The notes beneath the pieces were generated by a model that was not told the origin of the DNA, searched no databases, and was given only the letters and a program-made list of their open reading frames with translations. Source: Longimicrobium sp. (GTDB lineage Bacteria > Gemmatimonadota > Gemmatimonadetes > Longimicrobiales > Longimicrobiaceae). From it: 48,264 nucleotides of DNA. Position 1 is the stretch's first letter. Every line of letters begins with the position of its first letter. The position numbers and the translations under genes are program-made. The DNA lies in NCBI GenBank assembly GCA_036389795.1, contig DASVWD010000078.1, positions 1 to 48,264 on the forward strand, written 5' to 3'. Of this stretch, positions 7,296-18,005 are shown piece by piece.

Positions 7296-7323
7296 GCACT
7301 TCGCACCTCGCACTTCGCACTCC
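7296..7323. repeat. Heptamer array, four GCACTTC-like units
   Basis: Units GCACTTC, GCACCTC, GCACTTC, GCACTCC follow each other with an exact 7-bp period. Read on the other strand this is the AGTGCGA-type heptamer found at several other junctions in the window. It sits 16 bp before the putative NrtR operator. Confidence 0.85.
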
Positions 7324-7338
7324 TGACCCCGGGCCTGA

Positions 7339-7353
7339 TTCTCGCGTCGAGAA
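7339..7353. promoter_or_regulatory. Putative NrtR operator upstream of its own gene
   Basis: Perfect palindrome TTCTCG-CGT-CGAGAA, ending 22 bp before the ATG of the Nudix regulator. The same half-sites, with a different 3-bp spacer, occur 22 bp before the pncB ATG. NrtR proteins are known to bind palindromes ahead of NAD-salvage genes; assignment here is by position and shared motif. Confidence 0.7.
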
Positions 7354-7375
7354 CGCCCTCGTGACCGCCGACGCA

Positions 7376-8542
7376 ATGTCAGACTCCGCCGAGAAGAAGC
7401 CGGCCCCGCCGGACGACGGCCCCGTCCCCGAGTGGGCGCTCCGCTACGACGCCAGCGAGTTCCCGCGCTTCGCCGTCACCGGCGACGCCGTGGCGTTCGC
7501 GCTCGACCGGGACGGGGGCGAGGCCGCGCTCCAGGTGCTGGTGGTGGTCCGCGACGCAGAGCCGTTCCGCGGCCTCGACGCCTTTCCCGGCGGCTTCATG
7601 GACTGGGAGGCCGACCCCACCACCCGCGAGACCGCCGTCCGCGAGCTGGCCGAGGAGACCGGGGTGGACGCGCCCGAGTACGTGGAGCCGCTGGGGAGCT
7701 ACACCCAGCACGGCCGCGACCCGCGCCAGTTCGCCGGCCGGCGCGACGAGCGGACGGGCGAATGGGTCCCGCGCGGCGTGCGCGTGGCCACCAACGCGTA
7801 CCTGGTGCTCATGCGCAGGCCTTCGAGCGCGCCCACCGCGCAGGAGGGCGAGGTCTCCGAGGCGCGCTGGACCGACGTCTACGCCTACCTCCCCTGGGAA
7901 GACCTGCGCGCCGAGGCCGGGCGCGCCGCCGCCCGCCGCGCCCTGGCCGGGCTCTCCGCCTGGGCGGAAGCCGCGGGCGGCGACGCGCGCGAGCGCATCG
8001 ACTACGCGTTCGGCTTCGGGCTCAAGGAGTGGAACGAGGAGCGCGTGGGCGACCGCTGGCGCCTCCTCTTCGACGCCGGGCTCGTCCCCGAGGGCCGCCG
8101 CGACGCCTGGGGCCGCGCCGAGGCGGGGGAGACCGACGCCGCGCCCGGGCGGGAGATGGCCTTCGACCACCGCCGCATCCTGGGCGACGCGCTGGCCCGG
8201 CTCAGGGGGAAGATCAAGTACCTGCCGGCGTCGCTGATGGCGCTCACCGGCGAGGACTTCACCCTCGACGAGTTGCAGTCCGCCTGCGAGGCCATCGCCG
8301 GGCGGCCGCTGCACCGCGCCAACTTCCGCCGCACCGTGGCCGCCGCCCGCGACGAGCGCCAGACGCGCACCCCGCGCATCGTCTCCGGCACCGGCCGGCG
8401 GCGCAAGCGGGCGGCGGGGGAGCCGGGCGTGGCCCCCGAGCTCTTCCGCTTCCGCCCCGACGCCGTGCGCGCCCGGCTCGACCCCTCGCTGCGGCTCCCC
8501 TTCCTGGGCGTGGCCGCCGGGCCGGAGGAAGGGTCTCCTTGA
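7376..8542 (+). CDS. nrtR: NrtR-type Nudix transcriptional regulator of NAD metabolism
   Basis: A 388-aa protein with a Nudix domain (about residues 25-190) followed by a winged-helix domain. The Nudix part has DAFPGGFMDWEA and RELAEETGV; spacing in the Nudix box is about two residues longer than the classic pattern, so catalysis is uncertain. The C-terminal half carries the typical NrtR linker MAFDHRRILGDALARLRGKI and the winged helix FTLDELQSACEAIAGRPLHR then NFRRTV. NrtR family members sense ADP-ribose or related NAD metabolites and repress NAD-salvage genes. The next two genes are exactly such targets, pncB and pncA. The ATG was chosen because the palindrome lies at the same 22-bp distance as in pncB; no clear Shine-Dalgarno is present, and GTG at 7361 is an alternative. 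Its own promoter carries the operator, so autoregulation is likely. Confidence 0.88.
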   Translation: MSDSAEKKPAPPDDGPVPEWALRYDASEFPRFAVTGDAVAFALDRDGGEAALQVLVVVRDAEPFRGLDAFPGGFMDWEADPTTRETAVRELAEETGVDAPEYVEPLGSYTQHGRDPRQFAGRRDERTGEWVPRGVRVATNAYLVLMRRPSSAPTAQEGEVSEARWTDVYAYLPWEDLRAEAGRAAARRALAGLSAWAEAAGGDARERIDYAFGFGLKEWNEERVGDRWRLLFDAGLVPEGRRDAWGRAEAGETDAAPGREMAFDHRRILGDALARLRGKIKYLPASLMALTGEDFTLDELQSACEAIAGRPLHRANFRRTVAAARDERQTRTPRIVSGTGRRRKRAAGEPGVAPELFRFRPDAVRARLDPSLRLPFLGVAAGPEEGSP

Positions 8543-8584
8543 CGCCCGCTCCAGCGCGCGCTATCTCTCCCGCGAGACGCATTG

Positions 8585-8599
8585 TTCTCGTTTCGAGAA
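8585..8599. promoter_or_regulatory. Putative NrtR operator upstream of pncB
   Basis: Perfect palindrome TTCTCG-TTT-CGAGAA, ending 22 bp before the pncB ATG and 42 bp after the stop of the regulator gene. Both half-sites are identical to those of the site at 7339. Confidence 0.7.
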
Positions 8600-8621: not shown

Positions 8622-9827
8622 ATGACCGCCACCGTCCCCCCCGACCACCCCGGCGAGCGGGCCGAGGCGCTGCACGCGGGCCTGTGGCGCTTCCCGGCGC
8701 AGCTCTTCCGCTTCGACCCGCGCATGTGCGGCGGGTGGCTCTCCGACCGCTACTTCGTGCGCACCGAGAAGACGCTGGCGCACGCGGGCCGCGACCCCGT
8801 GGTCACCATGCAGGTCTTCGCCAAGAAGCAGGGGGTGCTGGCCGGAGTCTACGAGGCGATCCGGCTCCTGCAGACGCAGCTGGTCCCCGGCTACGAGGCG
8901 CGCGAGCTGGAGGTGCGCACCCTCCTGGAGGGCGACGCCATCAACCGCGCTGGCGACGACGACTGGGAGCCGGTGATGCACGTCACCGGGCGCTACCGCG
9001 GCTTCGCGCACCTGGAGACGCCGCTCCTGGGCGTGCTCGCCCGCCGCTCGCTGATCGCCACCAACACGCGCACCGTGGTCGAGGCCGCGCGGGGGAAGCC
9101 GGTGATCTTCATGGCGCCGCGCCACGACGACTGGCGCGTGCAGACGCCCGACGGCTACGCCGCGCAGGTCGGCGGCGCGCAGAGCGTCTCCAGCGACGCC
9201 GCCGGCGCCTGGTGGGGCGCGCGCGGGGTGGGCACCATGCCGCACGCCATGATCGCCGCCTTCGGAGGCGACACGGTGGCGGCCACGCTGGCCTTCGCGC
9301 GCTACCTGCGCGACTGCGAGCCCGACGTGCAGGTGATGAGCCTGGTGGACTACGACAACGACTCGGTGGGCACCTCGCTCGCCGTCGCGCGCGCCATGCG
9401 CGAGGAGTTCGGCGACGGCGTGCTCTCGGCCGTGCGCGTGGACACCAGCGAGCGGCTGATCGACTACGCGTTGCTCAAGGACGAGGAGCTGTGGGGCCGC
9501 GCCAAGCTCACCGGCGTCAACCCCTACCTGGTGCGCAAGCTGCGCGACGCGCTGGACGCGGAGGGGTTCGGTTACGTCGGCATCGTGGCGAGCGGCGGCT
9601 TCACGCCCGCCAAGATCCGGCGCTTCGAGGCCGAGGGCGTGCCGGTGATGGCGTACGGGATCGGCAGCAGCCTGCTGGGCCACAGCGACGGCTCGGGCAG
9701 CCTGCTGAACGACTTCGACTTCACCGCCGACCTGGTGAAGGTCGACGGCCGCGACGAGGGCAAGGTCGGCCGCCGCTACCGCGACAACCCGCGCATGGTC
9801 ACGCTGGACTGGGGGCGGGTGGAGTAA
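8622..9827 (+). CDS. pncB: Nicotinate phosphoribosyltransferase
   Basis: A 401-aa enzyme that joins nicotinate and PRPP to give nicotinate mononucleotide, the first step of the Preiss-Handler NAD salvage route. Family features: the N-terminal FRFDPRMCGGWLSDRYFVR (the Tyr region of the NAPRTase fold), GRYRGFAHLETPLLGVLARR, the internal DYDNDSVGTSLAVARAM segment, and the phosphate-binding VASGGFTPAKIRRFEAEGVP plus AYGIGSSLLG near the C-terminus. Length fits the short, single-chain type. The ATG is preceded by GGAGG at 4 bp. The NrtR palindrome lies just upstream, so this gene is the prime regulatory target. pncA follows after a repeat-filled 178-bp gap and may be co-transcribed. Confidence 0.92.
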   Translation: MTATVPPDHPGERAEALHAGLWRFPAQLFRFDPRMCGGWLSDRYFVRTEKTLAHAGRDPVVTMQVFAKKQGVLAGVYEAIRLLQTQLVPGYEARELEVRTLLEGDAINRAGDDDWEPVMHVTGRYRGFAHLETPLLGVLARRSLIATNTRTVVEAARGKPVIFMAPRHDDWRVQTPDGYAAQVGGAQSVSSDAAGAWWGARGVGTMPHAMIAAFGGDTVAATLAFARYLRDCEPDVQVMSLVDYDNDSVGTSLAVARAMREEFGDGVLSAVRVDTSERLIDYALLKDEELWGRAKLTGVNPYLVRKLRDALDAEGFGYVGIVASGGFTPAKIRRFEAEGVPVMAYGIGSSLLGHSDGSGSLLNDFDFTADLVKVDGRDEGKVGRRYRDNPRMVTLDWGRVE

Positions 9828-10005: not shown

Positions 10006-10755
10006 ATGGCCGAGCGGATCGCGCGGGTCGGGTGGGTGGTGGACGCGCAGAACGACTTCCTGCTCCCCCCGGAGGAGAGCGGGCGCCTCTACGTGCACGA
10101 CCTGTTCGACGGCGGCAGGGACCCCGGCGCGCGCCTCTGCGTGCCGGCGCTGACGCGGGCGGTGCGGTGGATGGAGGAGCACTGCGACGTGATGGTCTAC
10201 ACGGGCGACTGGCACGCCTACGGCGACGCCGAGATCGACACCGTGGCGCCGGACGCGCGGAAGGGGACCTACCCGCCGCACTGCATGGGGCTCTCGCCCG
10301 ATCCCGGGGAGCGGCTGGGAGCCGAGGTCATCGAGCCGATCCGCCCCGCCGACCCGCTGGTGCTCGACCGCGGCGCCACCGAGGCCGACGCGCGCGAGGT
10401 CGCCCGCCGCGCGGTGGAGGAGCGGCGGCCGGTCTTCATCCGCAAGGACCGTTTCGACGTCTTCGAGGGCAACCCCGCCACCGACGCGCTCCTGCGCGAG
10501 CTGCGCCATCGCCTCGGCGCGCCGCTGGAGATCTACGTGGCGGGCGTGGCGCGCGACGTGTGCGTGAAGCAGGCGGTGGAGGGGATGCTCGCCCCCGTGC
10601 GCCGCTACGCGGTGACGGTGATCACCGACGCCACCTGGGGCCTGGGGCTGGAGGACGAAGCCGTGAGCCTGGAGCGCTGGAGCGGCGCCGGCGCCGCGCT
10701 CATCACCACGCGCGGGCTGGAGCTGCGGAGCCAGGAGCCCCGGGCCGCGGCGTAG
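10006..10755 (+). CDS. pncA: Nicotinamidase / isochorismatase-family hydrolase
   Basis: A 249-aa cysteine hydrolase of the isochorismatase fold. The catalytic triad is visible: Asp13 in WVVDAQNDF, Lys147 in VFIRKDRFDVFEG, and Cys186 in VAGVARDVCVKQAVEG. The metal-binding D-x-H lies in TGDWHAYGD. Nicotinamidases convert nicotinamide to nicotinate, the substrate of the pncB product encoded upstream, which makes this assignment more likely than another isochorismatase relative. The start is an ATG with GGGAGGA upstream. Length is slightly above the usual 180-215 residues, with extra sequence around residues 75-120 (WHAYGDAEIDTVAPDARKGT onward). No separate NrtR palindrome was seen before it, so control probably comes from the pncB promoter. 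Confidence 0.88.
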   Translation: MAERIARVGWVVDAQNDFLLPPEESGRLYVHDLFDGGRDPGARLCVPALTRAVRWMEEHCDVMVYTGDWHAYGDAEIDTVAPDARKGTYPPHCMGLSPDPGERLGAEVIEPIRPADPLVLDRGATEADAREVARRAVEERRPVFIRKDRFDVFEGNPATDALLRELRHRLGAPLEIYVAGVARDVCVKQAVEGMLAPVRRYAVTVITDATWGLGLEDEAVSLERWSGAGAALITTRGLELRSQEPRAAA

Positions 10756-10780
10756 ATCACGCACGTCCATTCGCGGTTTC

Positions 10781-10815
10781 GCACTTCGCACTTAGCACTT
10801 CGCACTTAGCACTGG
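10781..10815. repeat. Heptamer array, five GCACTTC/GCACTTA units
   Basis: Units GCACTTC, GCACTTA, GCACTTC, GCACTTA, GCACTGG with exact 7-bp period fill most of the gap between the pncA stop and the macro-domain ATG, ending 6 bp before that ATG. Confidence 0.9.
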
Positions 10816-10821
10816 GGTTTC

Positions 10822-11349
10822 ATGACCACGCCACTCGCCGCGCGCCTGGAAGTCGTCCAGGGCGACATCACCCGGCTCGACGTCGACGGCATCGTCAACG
10901 CGGCGAACACCTCGCTGCTGGGGGGCGGGGGAGTGGACGGGGCGATCCACCGCGCGGCCGGGCCGGGGCTGCTGGAGGAGTGCCGGGGGCTCGGCGGCTG
11001 CCGCACCGGCGAGGCGAAGCTCACCGGCGGCTACCGGCTCCCCGCGCGGTGGGTGATCCATACCGTCGGGCCGGTATGGCAGGGTGGTGAAAAGGGAGAA
11101 GACGAGCTGCTCGCGTCCGCGTACCGCAGCTCGCTCAAGCTCGCCGCCGGCAAGGAGATGCGCACCGTCGCGTTCCCGTCGATCAGCACCGGTGCATACC
11201 GCTTTCCGCTGGCGCGCGCCACGCGCATTGCGGTGCGTGAAGCGGCGGACTTTCTGGCCCGAAACCCCTATCCCCAGAAGGTGATCTTCTGCACGTTCGG
11301 AGAGGAGGCATACAGAGAATACTTGACGGCGGTGCAAGAGGCGGTTTAA
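10822..11349 (+). CDS. Macro domain protein, likely O-acetyl-ADP-ribose deacetylase
   Basis: A 175-aa stand-alone macro domain of the YmdB/MacroD type. Signature parts are [37 protein letters not shown] (ADP-ribose phosphate loop), [20 protein letters not shown] and [19 protein letters not shown]. Such proteins bind ADP-ribose and remove acetyl or ADP-ribosyl groups, recycling NAD-derived products. Its place 66 bp after pncA, in a cluster headed by an ADP-ribose-sensing type regulator, links it to NAD turnover. The heptamer array fills the gap just before the ATG, and no classic ribosome-binding site is visible (GGGGTTTC precedes the ATG), so translation may be weak or coupled. Length and motifs are complete. 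Confidence 0.92.
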
Positions 11350-13658: not shown

Positions 13659-16600
13659 ATGATTGTCCGATTCCACCCGACCGCCTTCTCCCGATCCCGG
13701 TACCGCATGCTCTTCCGACTCGCCGCCCTCCTCGCGGTCGTGGCGCTCGTCTGCGCCGGGTCCACGCCCGCGGCCGCCCAGCAACCGTGCCAGTCGCTCA
13801 ACCCTCGCTGCACGAACTACGCTCCTTTCGTGGCGGTCACGCCGGCCGGCGGGACGTACACGACCCCGTACGTGACGGTGACGGTGGAGTTCAGCGACGA
13901 CTCGGGGCTGAACTTCGGGAGCTTCCAGGCGAAGCTGAACGGGCACGTGATCCAGGGCGGGCTGGCCGGCGCGGGGACGGAGGGCTCCACCGTCCTGGGC
14001 CTGGACCTGGCGCCGGGGGTGAACACGCTGGAGGTCAGCGTCTGCGACCTGACCGGGAAGTGCGACGCGGGGGGCGGCAGCTACACCTACACGCAGCCGC
14101 CCCCGGCGCAGTGGCACGCGGACCCGCTCATCAGCCTGGCGCCGTACAGCGAGGGCGTGCGGACGGTCTCGCCGTTCGACGCGGTGCAGACCTACACGAC
14201 TCCCGCGTACGTGAGCAAGGACGTGCCGCGCTCGGTCACCCTGGTCTACACGGGCGCGCAGGCGCAGGCGCGCGCCTTCGTGCAGGTGGACGCCTTCGAC
14301 AACTCGCAGGAGAAGCCGGCGACCCTCTCCATCCAGGTGCTGGACGCCGCCGGGAACCCGGTCACGGGCGAGCGGCACTACAGCGTCGAGGGGGCGGCCA
14401 CCCACCGCCTGGCGGCCACCTGGACCGCGCCCCACCTTCCCACCGGCGCCTACACCTACCTCGTGGCGGTACGCTCCCACTGGGCGGGCGACACGCGGAC
14501 TTCGACCGTCCCCGTGCGGGTGCTGATCGTCAACGAGCAGGGGAGCCGCTTCGGGGCGGGGTGGTCGGTGGCGGGGCTGCAGCGCCTGCACTTCCGCGGC
14601 GACAGCGTGATGGTGACCAACGGCGACGGCTCGGCGGTCTACTTCGCCAAGAACGGCTTCACCATCTGGAAGCGGCCCGAAGGGGAGTGGAGCGAGCTGA
14701 CCCGGCCCGACTCGCTCTGGCACCGCCGCTGGCCCGACGGCACCGAGGCGGTCTTCTCCGGCGACGGTTACCTGAAGTACGTGACCGACCGCTTCCAGAA
14801 CACCACTTCCTTCTCCTGGACCTGGACCGCCGACGGCGCGCGGGTCCCGTACCAGATCGTCGACCCGGTGCAGCAGGCGACCACCTTCGCCTACCACGGG
14901 GCGAACGGGACCCACTCGTACAAGCTCGGCGCCATCTACGACCCCGGCGGGCGCGGCACCGGCTTCGCGTACTACGACGGGCAGAACAACCTCACCTACG
15001 TCCACGAGGCGGACCAGGGGGTCGGGCTCGTGCTCGGCTACGACGGCGCCCACCGCCTGGTCTCGCGCGCCAACCGCGACGGCGGAACCTGGACGTACGT
15101 CTACGACGCGGCGGGCCTGGTGGCGGCGGACAGCCTCCCCACCGTCACGCTGGAGGGCGGAGCGCAGGCGCGGCCCGCCGTGCGCTTCCGCGCGTGGGAG
15201 ACGGCCCTGCTCTCGCCCGGCCCGGGCGCCGCCCCGCGCGTGGACAGCGCCGCCGCGCGCGCCGAGGTGACCGACCCGCGGGGCGCCGTCACCCGCCTGG
15301 CGTTCGACCGCTTCTTCCAGCCCACGCGCGTGGAGGAGCCGCTGGGCGACACCACGCTCATCAGCCGCAACGAACAAGGACAGCCGACGACGGTGGTGCT
15401 CCCCACCGGGGCGGTCTCGCGGTACCAGTGGGAAGGGGCCAGCCTGACGCGCTCCTGGGATGCGGAAAGCGGCGGCTTCACCGACTACACCTACGAGACG
15501 GCCTACAACCAGCTGGAAACCGTATCGTCGGGCGGGGCCGTGACCACCTACCACTACGGCCCGCGAGGCGAGCTGCGAAAGGTCAGGCTCGGCTCCGACT
15601 CCACGCTCTTCGACTACACGCCGGACTGGCGCATCCTGTGGTCGCAGGACGCCGCCGGCCACCGCACCGACTACACCTACCAGCCCACCGGCTTCCGCAA
15701 CCTGGCCGAGGTGCGCGACCTGGACGCGAGCGGCTCGACGCGGGTGGTCAGCTACGGCTACGATTCGTACGGCCGCGCCGCGACGGTCACCGATGCGGCG
15801 GGAACGGTGCAGCGTTTCTACGACCTGATCAACCGCGACACCGCCGTGAGCGACCCGGCCGGGACCACGCGGCTCACTTACCAGGAAACGCAGCTGTACC
15901 GGGTGACCGACGCGGCCGGGAAGGCGTACACCTTCCACCACAACCCGCTCGGCTGGCTCACGTCGGAGGTGGACCCGAACGGGCGGCCCCGCAGCTTCGG
16001 GTACGACGTGGCGGGCAACGTGGTGCGGGCCACGGACCGCCGCAACCGGACCGTCACCTTCAGCCACGACAGCCTGGGCCGGGTGCTGGCCCGCACGGCC
16101 GACGGAGCGACCACCACCTACGAGTATGGCCCGGACCGGCGCTGGGTGTACGCGCACAACGACGTGAGCGCCGACACGATCCGGTTCGACGAACGCGGGC
16201 GGCCCACCGACGAGGTGACGATCTTTCCGGGCGTGCCCGGCGGAGTTTTCCGGCGCACGTCCACCTGGAGCGAGGAGGGCCTGCGCGAGAGGCTGGCGTA
16301 CAACGCCCCGGGGCGCACCCTGCCGGAGATCCGCTTCCGCTACAACGCCTCGCTGCAGCTCGACGGCATCCTGGCGTTCGGCGCCTGGACCAACCTCTAC
16401 TACAACGACGACGCGCAGGTCGACACCATCTGGCTGCCCAGCGGCGCGCGGCAGACCTTCCAGTACACGGGCACGCACCTGCCCGCGCAGGCGCGCTGGA
16501 GCGTGCCGGGGCTGGACGGCAGGCTCGGCTTCCGGTACGGCTTCGACCACCTGGACCGTCTGCTGCTGCGCAACAACGCCTCGGGCAGCACCGAGCGCCG

Positions 16601-18005
16601 CTACTCGTACGACGCGGTGAGCCGGCTCACCGGCTTCAGCCACCTCGTCGCCACGCCCGGCGACCTGGTGTGCGAGAATCCCTGGCAGCCGAGCACGTGC
16701 TACCGGCCGACCGAGTGGGTGGAGACCGACGCGGCCGCGTACTCGTACGACGCGGTGGGGAACCGCACCGACGCCGGGGCGTCGCTGCAGCCCGCGAGCA
16801 ACCGGTACGCCACCTTCCGCGGCTACGGCTTCGCGTACGACGAGGAAGGCAACCTCACCCGCAAGTACAACGCGAGCTACGACCAGACGCTCTCCTGGAA
16901 CAGCCTGGGCCAGCTCGAGAGCGTGACCACCAACGGTGTGACCGTCTTCTACGGGTACAACGGCTTCGGCCAGCGGGTGGTCCGCAGCGTGGCGGGCGGC
17001 TCGTCCACCTACTCGGTGTACGACGGCGACGACCTGCTGCTGGAGGTGGACCAGAACGGCACCCTGCTGCGGGAGTTCGCCCACTACCCGGGGATCGACC
17101 GTCCGCACAGCCTGCGCGCGGCGGACGGCTCGGTCTACTACTATGCGACCGAGTATCCCGGGCACGTCGCGGGCCTCTTCAACTCCAGCAACCAGGTGGT
17201 GAACGAGTACCGTCACAACCCGTGGGGGGAGACGGAGGTGGTCACCGAGGGTGTGCCGCAGCCGCTGCGCTACATGGCGCGGGAACTGGACGCGCTCACG
17301 GGGCTGTACTACGTGCGCAACCGCTGGTACGACCCGGTGCTGGCGCGCTTCGTCAGCGATGATCCGATCGGGCTGGCGGGAGGGATCAACACGTACGCCT
17401 ACGTTGGGAACAGTCCCACGAACTACCTTGATCCCCTGGGACTGCTACGGCGGGATGGCTGCATCGACTGGTATCTGATCACCATCAACCGGAGGACCGG
17501 CCAGGTCGTCAGCGAAACGTATGTGCGTACCACCTGTCCCGAGGGAGGCAATGGGAACGAGGGACATGACGAAAAGAATCACAGACAATGTCCTCTCCCG
17601 CCCCCGCTCCCGCCGGGCGCGAGTGTCGACGACAACGTGAGTCTTGCGCTTCGTGCATGGTGGCTCCGCTGGGTCGAGGGGATCGGAGAGTTGTTGACGA
17701 TGGCCTGGTTCCGTGACATGGTCGGGAAGAACAAGCCCTGGGACTATCAGCAAAGCACGGGAGGGCTGCGCCCCGAGTACGAGGACGGAGGGAACTTCAA
17801 CTACGGCGCCACTGGGCGCGCGGTGGGGTTTTCGAGGGGAGATCTGCTGCGGGCCGCCGGATACGTCCAATCCAGAAATCCGTCGGGATCGGCCGCGGGA
17901 GACGGGCATTGGTGGGGAAGGGCCCCGTACGGCGACGAGCGCGTCGACCAGGCCTGGATCCGACAGGGGATTCGCTACTACGAGGAAGGATGTTACAAGA
18001 AATGA
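13659..18005 (+). CDS. RHS/YD-repeat polymorphic toxin with type-44-like C-terminal domain
   Basis: A 1448-aa exported protein. A signal peptide lies within residues 17-42 ([18 protein letters not shown] then AAAQQ); ATG at 13707 is an equally good start and neither has a clear ribosome-binding site. Residues ~45-290 are Ig-like beta domains, followed by many YD repeats (~430-1190) that build an RHS shell. The RHS core ends with [40 protein letters not shown] at about residue 1259. The ~185-residue tail after DPLGL is unlike the shell and lower in repeats. It has [27 protein letters not shown] and [10 protein letters not shown], which I recall as the polymorphic toxin type 44 pattern. RHS proteins encapsulate and release such C-terminal toxins against competitors. 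The stop overlaps the start of the following lipoprotein gene. Toxin activity cannot be told from sequence. Confidence 0.88.

Follow-up and report, generated by a model that had tools for sequence, protein, structure and literature searches.

A regulator gene in the window, a stretch of 48,264 nucleotides of Longimicrobium sp. DNA, turns out to encode an intermediate between the NrtR and NadQ families of NAD repressors. Two palindromes beside this gene are very probably operators of the encoded protein, a NadQ/NrtR-superfamily repressor of pncB, nadA and, here, its own gene. A single protein carrying both signatures links two repressor families whose sensor domains have been regarded as different. 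The operator set and the predicted Gemmatimonadota regulon (nadA, pncB, and the regulator gene) are considered real with high confidence, and their main value lies in the link between NrtR and NadQ. A literature search found no paper combining Gemmatimonad* and NrtR and none describing an NAD regulon of Gemmatimonadota.

The first palindrome, TTCTCG-CGT-CGAGAA (7339–7353), precedes the regulator gene (7376–8542, forward strand, 388 amino acids) as its putative autoregulatory site, and the second, TTCTCG-TTT-CGAGAA (8585–8599), lies between this gene and pncB (8622–9827, forward strand). Both are exact palindromes, and their positions, the spacers CGT and TTT, and the distance of 22 bp from the palindrome end to ATG 7376 and ATG 8622 are as given in the original prediction. 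The additional claim that the motif fixes the start of the regulator did not hold. A GTG codon at 7361 is in frame 7 bp after the first palindrome, and the 22-bp distance is not conserved. Because the distances to homologous starts vary widely in relatives (13–147 bp for the homologous pncB start and 26–133 bp for nadA), the 22 bp is regarded as a coincidence that leaves the start unfixed, with ATG 7376 and GTG 7361 both possible. The putative target downstream is a pncB-type nicotinate phosphoribosyltransferase gene, whose product matches NCBIfam NF005529 at 2.3e-96, under the curated cut-off. It is followed by an isochorismatase-family gene (10006–10755, forward strand; Pfam Isochorismatase 4.9e-10 and a weak PRK11609 match), which probably encodes a nicotinamidase (pncA). 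Directly after the pncA-like gene comes a macro-domain gene (10822–11349) resembling O-acetyl-ADP-ribose deacetylase genes (NF001664, above cut-off). A search for sigma-70-like promoters around the sites gave no match. Short intergenic strings of repeated gcacttcgcactt lie at about 7296–7325, before the regulator gene, and 10780–10812, before the macro-domain gene. The window also contains a long gene for an RHS-repeat-like protein (13659–18005, 1448 amino acids).

The regulator had been labeled NrtR-type, which is explained by the Pfam matches to NUDIX (1.4e-14) and NrtR_WHD (1.2e-8). The label is apt for the Nudix half, but residues 134–375 match NadQ far better. The Nudix part recognizable by sequence spans residues 19–119 (7430–7732, forward strand) and contains RELAEE and GRDPR in the alignment to SoNrtR (Protein Data Bank [PDB] ID: 3gz5) and the NrtR and NadQ rows. 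An inter-domain helical insert with the pattern PWED...WNEE...AGLV (residues ~165–255; 7868–8140, forward strand) is common to NadQ and absent from NrtR. The C-terminal winged-helix DNA-binding region (residues ~256–375; 8141–8500, forward strand) includes the NrtR_WHD match at residues 290–323. This match (PF21906, NrtR winged helix) scores 35.4 bits against a cut-off of 27 and covers positions 4–37 of 61 only. In our computational comparison, the best solved relative was NadQ of A. tumefaciens (phmmer 1.5e-26, residues 134–375), and the match rose to 4.4e-35 with a five-sequence profile. The match to SoNrtR was 1.1e-18, and its best stretch was Nudix residues 19–119. The AlphaFold2 model of the regulator (mean pLDDT 81.7) had NadQ as its best PDB match (Z score 28.2, rmsd 3.1, 281 residues), compared with a Z score of 19.8 over 217 residues for SoNrtR. 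The alignment of the model with NadQ extends across the N-terminal domain, consistent with the published wording; the title of Minazzato 2022 (cited in PMC11452294) refers to NadQ as "Nudix-like" with ATP-responsive DNA binding.

In 80 related loci from named genomes, three architectures separated cleanly. The Gemmatimonadota-type proteins, including one Longimicrobium sp. record and one labeled Nannocystineae, match the regulator over both halves. The NadQ rows (alpha- and beta-proteobacteria and others) match in the C-terminal part alone and have the PWED/WNEE insert without the Nudix signature, and the NrtR rows (Actinobacteria, Paenibacillus, and others) match in the Nudix and winged-helix parts without the insert. 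In a tree of the 68 columns common to the three architectures, the Gemmatimonadota rows grouped with NadQ and NrtR stood apart, with support of 86/96, which is moderate evidence because the columns are few. These comparisons suggest that the insert, winged helix, and operator of the regulator are NadQ-like by descent and that it still has the NrtR type of Nudix motif, which is lost in NadQ. The regulator may also be a living intermediate on a path from NrtR to NadQ, in which the insert and DNA recognition of the NadQ type arose early, in a protein with an intact Nudix sensor, the Nudix site decayed stepwise later, and the effector switched from ADP-ribose to ATP or NAD, a tentative scenario to which we give somewhat less than even weight. 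The reading of a stepwise decay draws on the full-length relatives L018, L094, and L096, in which the Nudix box is already decayed and the NadQ-like part is retained.

The 36 collected sites define the motif TTCTC-R-N3-Y-GAGAA with an AT-leaning flank to +/-11, beyond which the information drops. None of the 36 sites deviates from TCTC in the 5' arm or from A and G at positions +4 and +5, respectively, of the 3' arm. The published consensus of proteobacterial NadQ is ttATRCTCannntGAGYATaa (PMC5343134), and CTC at -5 to -3 and GAG at +3 to +5 occur in both motifs. Compared with this consensus, T at -7 is in register and the TTA flank is weak, whereas position -6 is T in 36/36 sites and position -2 is mostly G. 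The NadQ loci themselves have same-register sites resembling TTATACTC-N5-GAGTATAA, such as TTATACTCAACTTGAGTATAA (L097) and TTATGCTCAGTTTGAGCATAA (L121). Judged from these alignments, the Longimicrobium motif is the NadQ motif with T instead of R at -6 and G or A instead of A at -2. The expectation that it would define a new motif for this lineage was therefore too strong, since the NadQ motif lies in the same register and differs by two symmetric substitutions. Palindromes in the same register were also seen in divergent Gemmatimonadota relatives: TTGTC-N5-GACAA before nadA (L094:5154 and L095:3748) and GAATC-N5-GATTC before the adjacent pncB (L096:5115), the latter also beside the regulator gene without an NAD gene (L093:2342/L017). 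They are treated as leads because the sequences are few and were found by inspection. Because the geometry is constant and the arms vary (TTCTC, TTGTC, and GAATC), these sites form a compact set for testing a change of winged-helix specificity, and the Gemmatimonadota group also suits a test of ligand change in a Nudix sensor. A one-residue code, in which the His of LHRxNFRR pairs with the CTC half-site, was dropped; G001 has Pro at this position and keeps the same operator.

The same regulator and sites could instead belong to the NrtR family proper, with the palindrome as another lineage-specific NrtR motif. Both Pfam matches (NrtR_WHD and NUDIX) exceed their cut-offs, the Nudix residues and RDPR are as in NrtR, and motif variation is known for this family (PMC4666351, PMC5343134). 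The NCBIfam equivalog model of NrtR also matches at 2.3e-24, although its 86 bits are far below the cut-off of 400. Like NrtR of Shewanella oneidensis (PDB IDs: 3gz5 and 3gz6) and Mycobacterium smegmatis (MsNrtR), the regulator has a Nudix N-terminal half, with the loop length of SoNrtR, a homologous winged helix, predicted NAD-gene targets, and, in this lineage, probable autoregulation. However, NrtR proteins have ~240 amino acids in two domains without an insert, and the 388-residue regulator has a 90-residue insert common to NadQ only. NadQ is its best match in both sequence and fold, even the common winged-helix part groups with NadQ in the tree, and the operator core is that of NadQ. The NrtR motifs of M. 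smegmatis (GTTTTCGA-N7-TCGAAAAC) and Streptococcus (ATA-N-TTTA-N3-TAAAA-N2-ATA) (PMC6800001) differ from the palindrome. Membership in the NrtR family proper is thus unlikely.

The assignment of the palindromes to the adjacent regulator was borne out by a scan of the genome and its relatives upstream of NAD genes. The regulator was searched in 40 relatives, and 21 family genomes were scanned for nadA, pncB, and members of the NrtR winged-helix family. Twelve genomes, ten of the genus and one from each of two other genera (G014 and G015), encode a close copy of the regulator. A site with 0–2 mismatches within 400 bp upstream was found for nadA in 12/12 and for pncB in 12/12 of them. In contrast, seven genomes encode no NrtR_WHD protein, and in 7/7 of these the best match before nadA had three or more mismatches; likewise, no site with fewer than three mismatches preceded the pncB orthologs of the regulator-less genomes G013, G016, and G018 (0/3). 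The nadA contrast (12/12 versus 0/7) has a probability of 1/50,388 under genome independence, but the genomes are related, so the 12 positive ones are not 12 independent events. At the two-mismatch level, the genome of the window has 91 matches in 7.5 Mb; because this rate is ~0.005 per 400 bp, the 24/24 sites are far above background. NadA of G018 and G020 is 88% identical to that of the window's genome, yet both lack the regulator and the site, which argues for a linked loss. The palindromes, conserved with the close regulator and absent without it, would accordingly be operators of the Nudix/winged-helix protein encoded next to them.

The likely targets had been sought next to the regulator gene. 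This was right for pncB, but a site ahead of the regulator gene itself was found in just 4/11 genomes, and the distant nadA was missed, which is the most conserved predicted target outside the cluster. The own-gene site is present in G000, G001, G007, and G009 (one mismatch in the last three) and was not found in G002, G004–G006, G008, G014, and G015 (7/11), so that autoregulation is probably lineage-specific. The pncB orthologs adjoin the regulator gene in relatives. In six genomes, pncB is preceded by paired sites, 47 bp apart in G003–G006 and G014 and 44 bp apart in G015, which suggests two dimers on one promoter; the upstream region of pncB in the window's genome has one site. The pncA-like gene adjoins pncB in G001 and G002, and the window scan found no operator of its own.

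A different explanation is that an unrelated regulator binds the palindrome and by coincidence disappeared from the same genomes. If genes were lost family-wide where the regulator is missing, another factor could be among them. Against this, the adjacent protein has a winged helix, the motif is in register with that of its nearest relative NadQ (PMC5343134), and in divergent lineages the palindrome changes and still adjoins the same regulator gene, making such a coincidence very improbable.

The genome of the window (7.52 Mb, 285 contigs) was scanned by patterns, not by a weight matrix. It contains three exact copies of the palindrome: the two window sites and one at C10:3249, 73 bp upstream of the TTG codon that probably starts nadA (quinolinate synthase). 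All three are at NAD loci (regulator gene, pncB, and nadA). By chance, between 0.12 exact copies per genome (with independent bases) and 0.34 (with a first-order Markov model) would be expected, and a reversed-pattern control on the whole genome gave no match. The identity of the pncB and nadA copies, including the spacer (TTCTCGTTTCGAGAA), might point to chance or to a repeat that was copied recently. This reading is refuted by the conservation across three genera, the expectation of <0.35 copies per genome, and the completely different flanks of the copies, and it has next to no probability left. In the window, no palindrome other than those at 7339–7353 and 8585–8599 was found with up to two mismatches, and three-mismatch matches were at background (11 found versus 17.9 expected). 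The one-mismatch sites of the window's genome (C25:1331, C187:4469, and C222:24529) had no recognizable NAD gene, and one of them sits within a DNA methyltransferase-like gene.

We propose the following mechanism for the regulator by analogy with the NrtR and NadQ families. The C-terminal winged helices of a dimer would contact TTCTC-N5-GAGAA, and the bound sites would be at or close to the promoters of pncB, for salvage, of nadA, for de novo synthesis and at another locus, and, for this lineage, of the regulator gene itself. The effect is probably repression rather than activation, and transcription would be blocked when NAD is sufficient. The dimer may be released from the operator when the N-terminal Nudix-fold domain binds a nucleotide reporting the NAD state. 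ADP-ribose, which releases NrtR from DNA, is the favored effector, since the Nudix half resembles NrtR and RELxEE and GRDPR are kept. ATP or NAD is the alternative because the remainder is NadQ-like and NadQ has been co-crystallized with both (PDB IDs: 7q92 and 7q93). The pncA-like gene is possibly a member of the pncB transcription unit, and the macro-domain gene may be co-transcribed as well. If its annotation is right, the macro-domain protein would act on ADP-ribose derivatives, which fits the ADP-ribose theme but proves nothing.

NadQ (COG4111) of Agrobacterium tumefaciens is a repressor of NAD biosynthesis with known apo, ATP, NAD, and DNA complex structures (PDB IDs: 7q91–7q94). The regulator resembles it in the C-terminal two thirds, insert, winged helix, fold, CTC-N5-GAG operator core, and predicted target nadA. 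It differs by keeping the Nudix RELxEE and RDPR, which are absent from the NadQ rows, by the operator positions -6 and -2, by pncB as a predicted core target, and by its Gemmatimonadota host. NadQ controls nadABC, whereas neither nadB nor nadC was found to have a site in the genome of the window. AraR/XylR of Bacteroides (PDB ID: 5bs6), which are NrtR-family sugar regulators, have a similar Nudix-like and winged-helix fold, and tandem operators are also known there (PMC4666351). Unlike the regulator, they have a sugar effector and sugar genes as targets, and their match is weaker (3.5e-10) and limited to the winged helix.

Some sites in relatives have no clear NAD gene nearby, namely, two exact orphans, G006:C86:30938 (L033) and G015:C92:1904 (L169), and degenerate ones on G001:C156 and G002:C155. 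The one on G002:C155, at 46744 (L171), is near a galactose-1-phosphate uridylyltransferase-like gene. The window's genome encodes one NrtR_WHD protein. G008 encodes a second protein (C198:109793–109975) whose NrtR_WHD match, at 91 bits, is much stronger and which is perhaps a canonical NrtR paralog.
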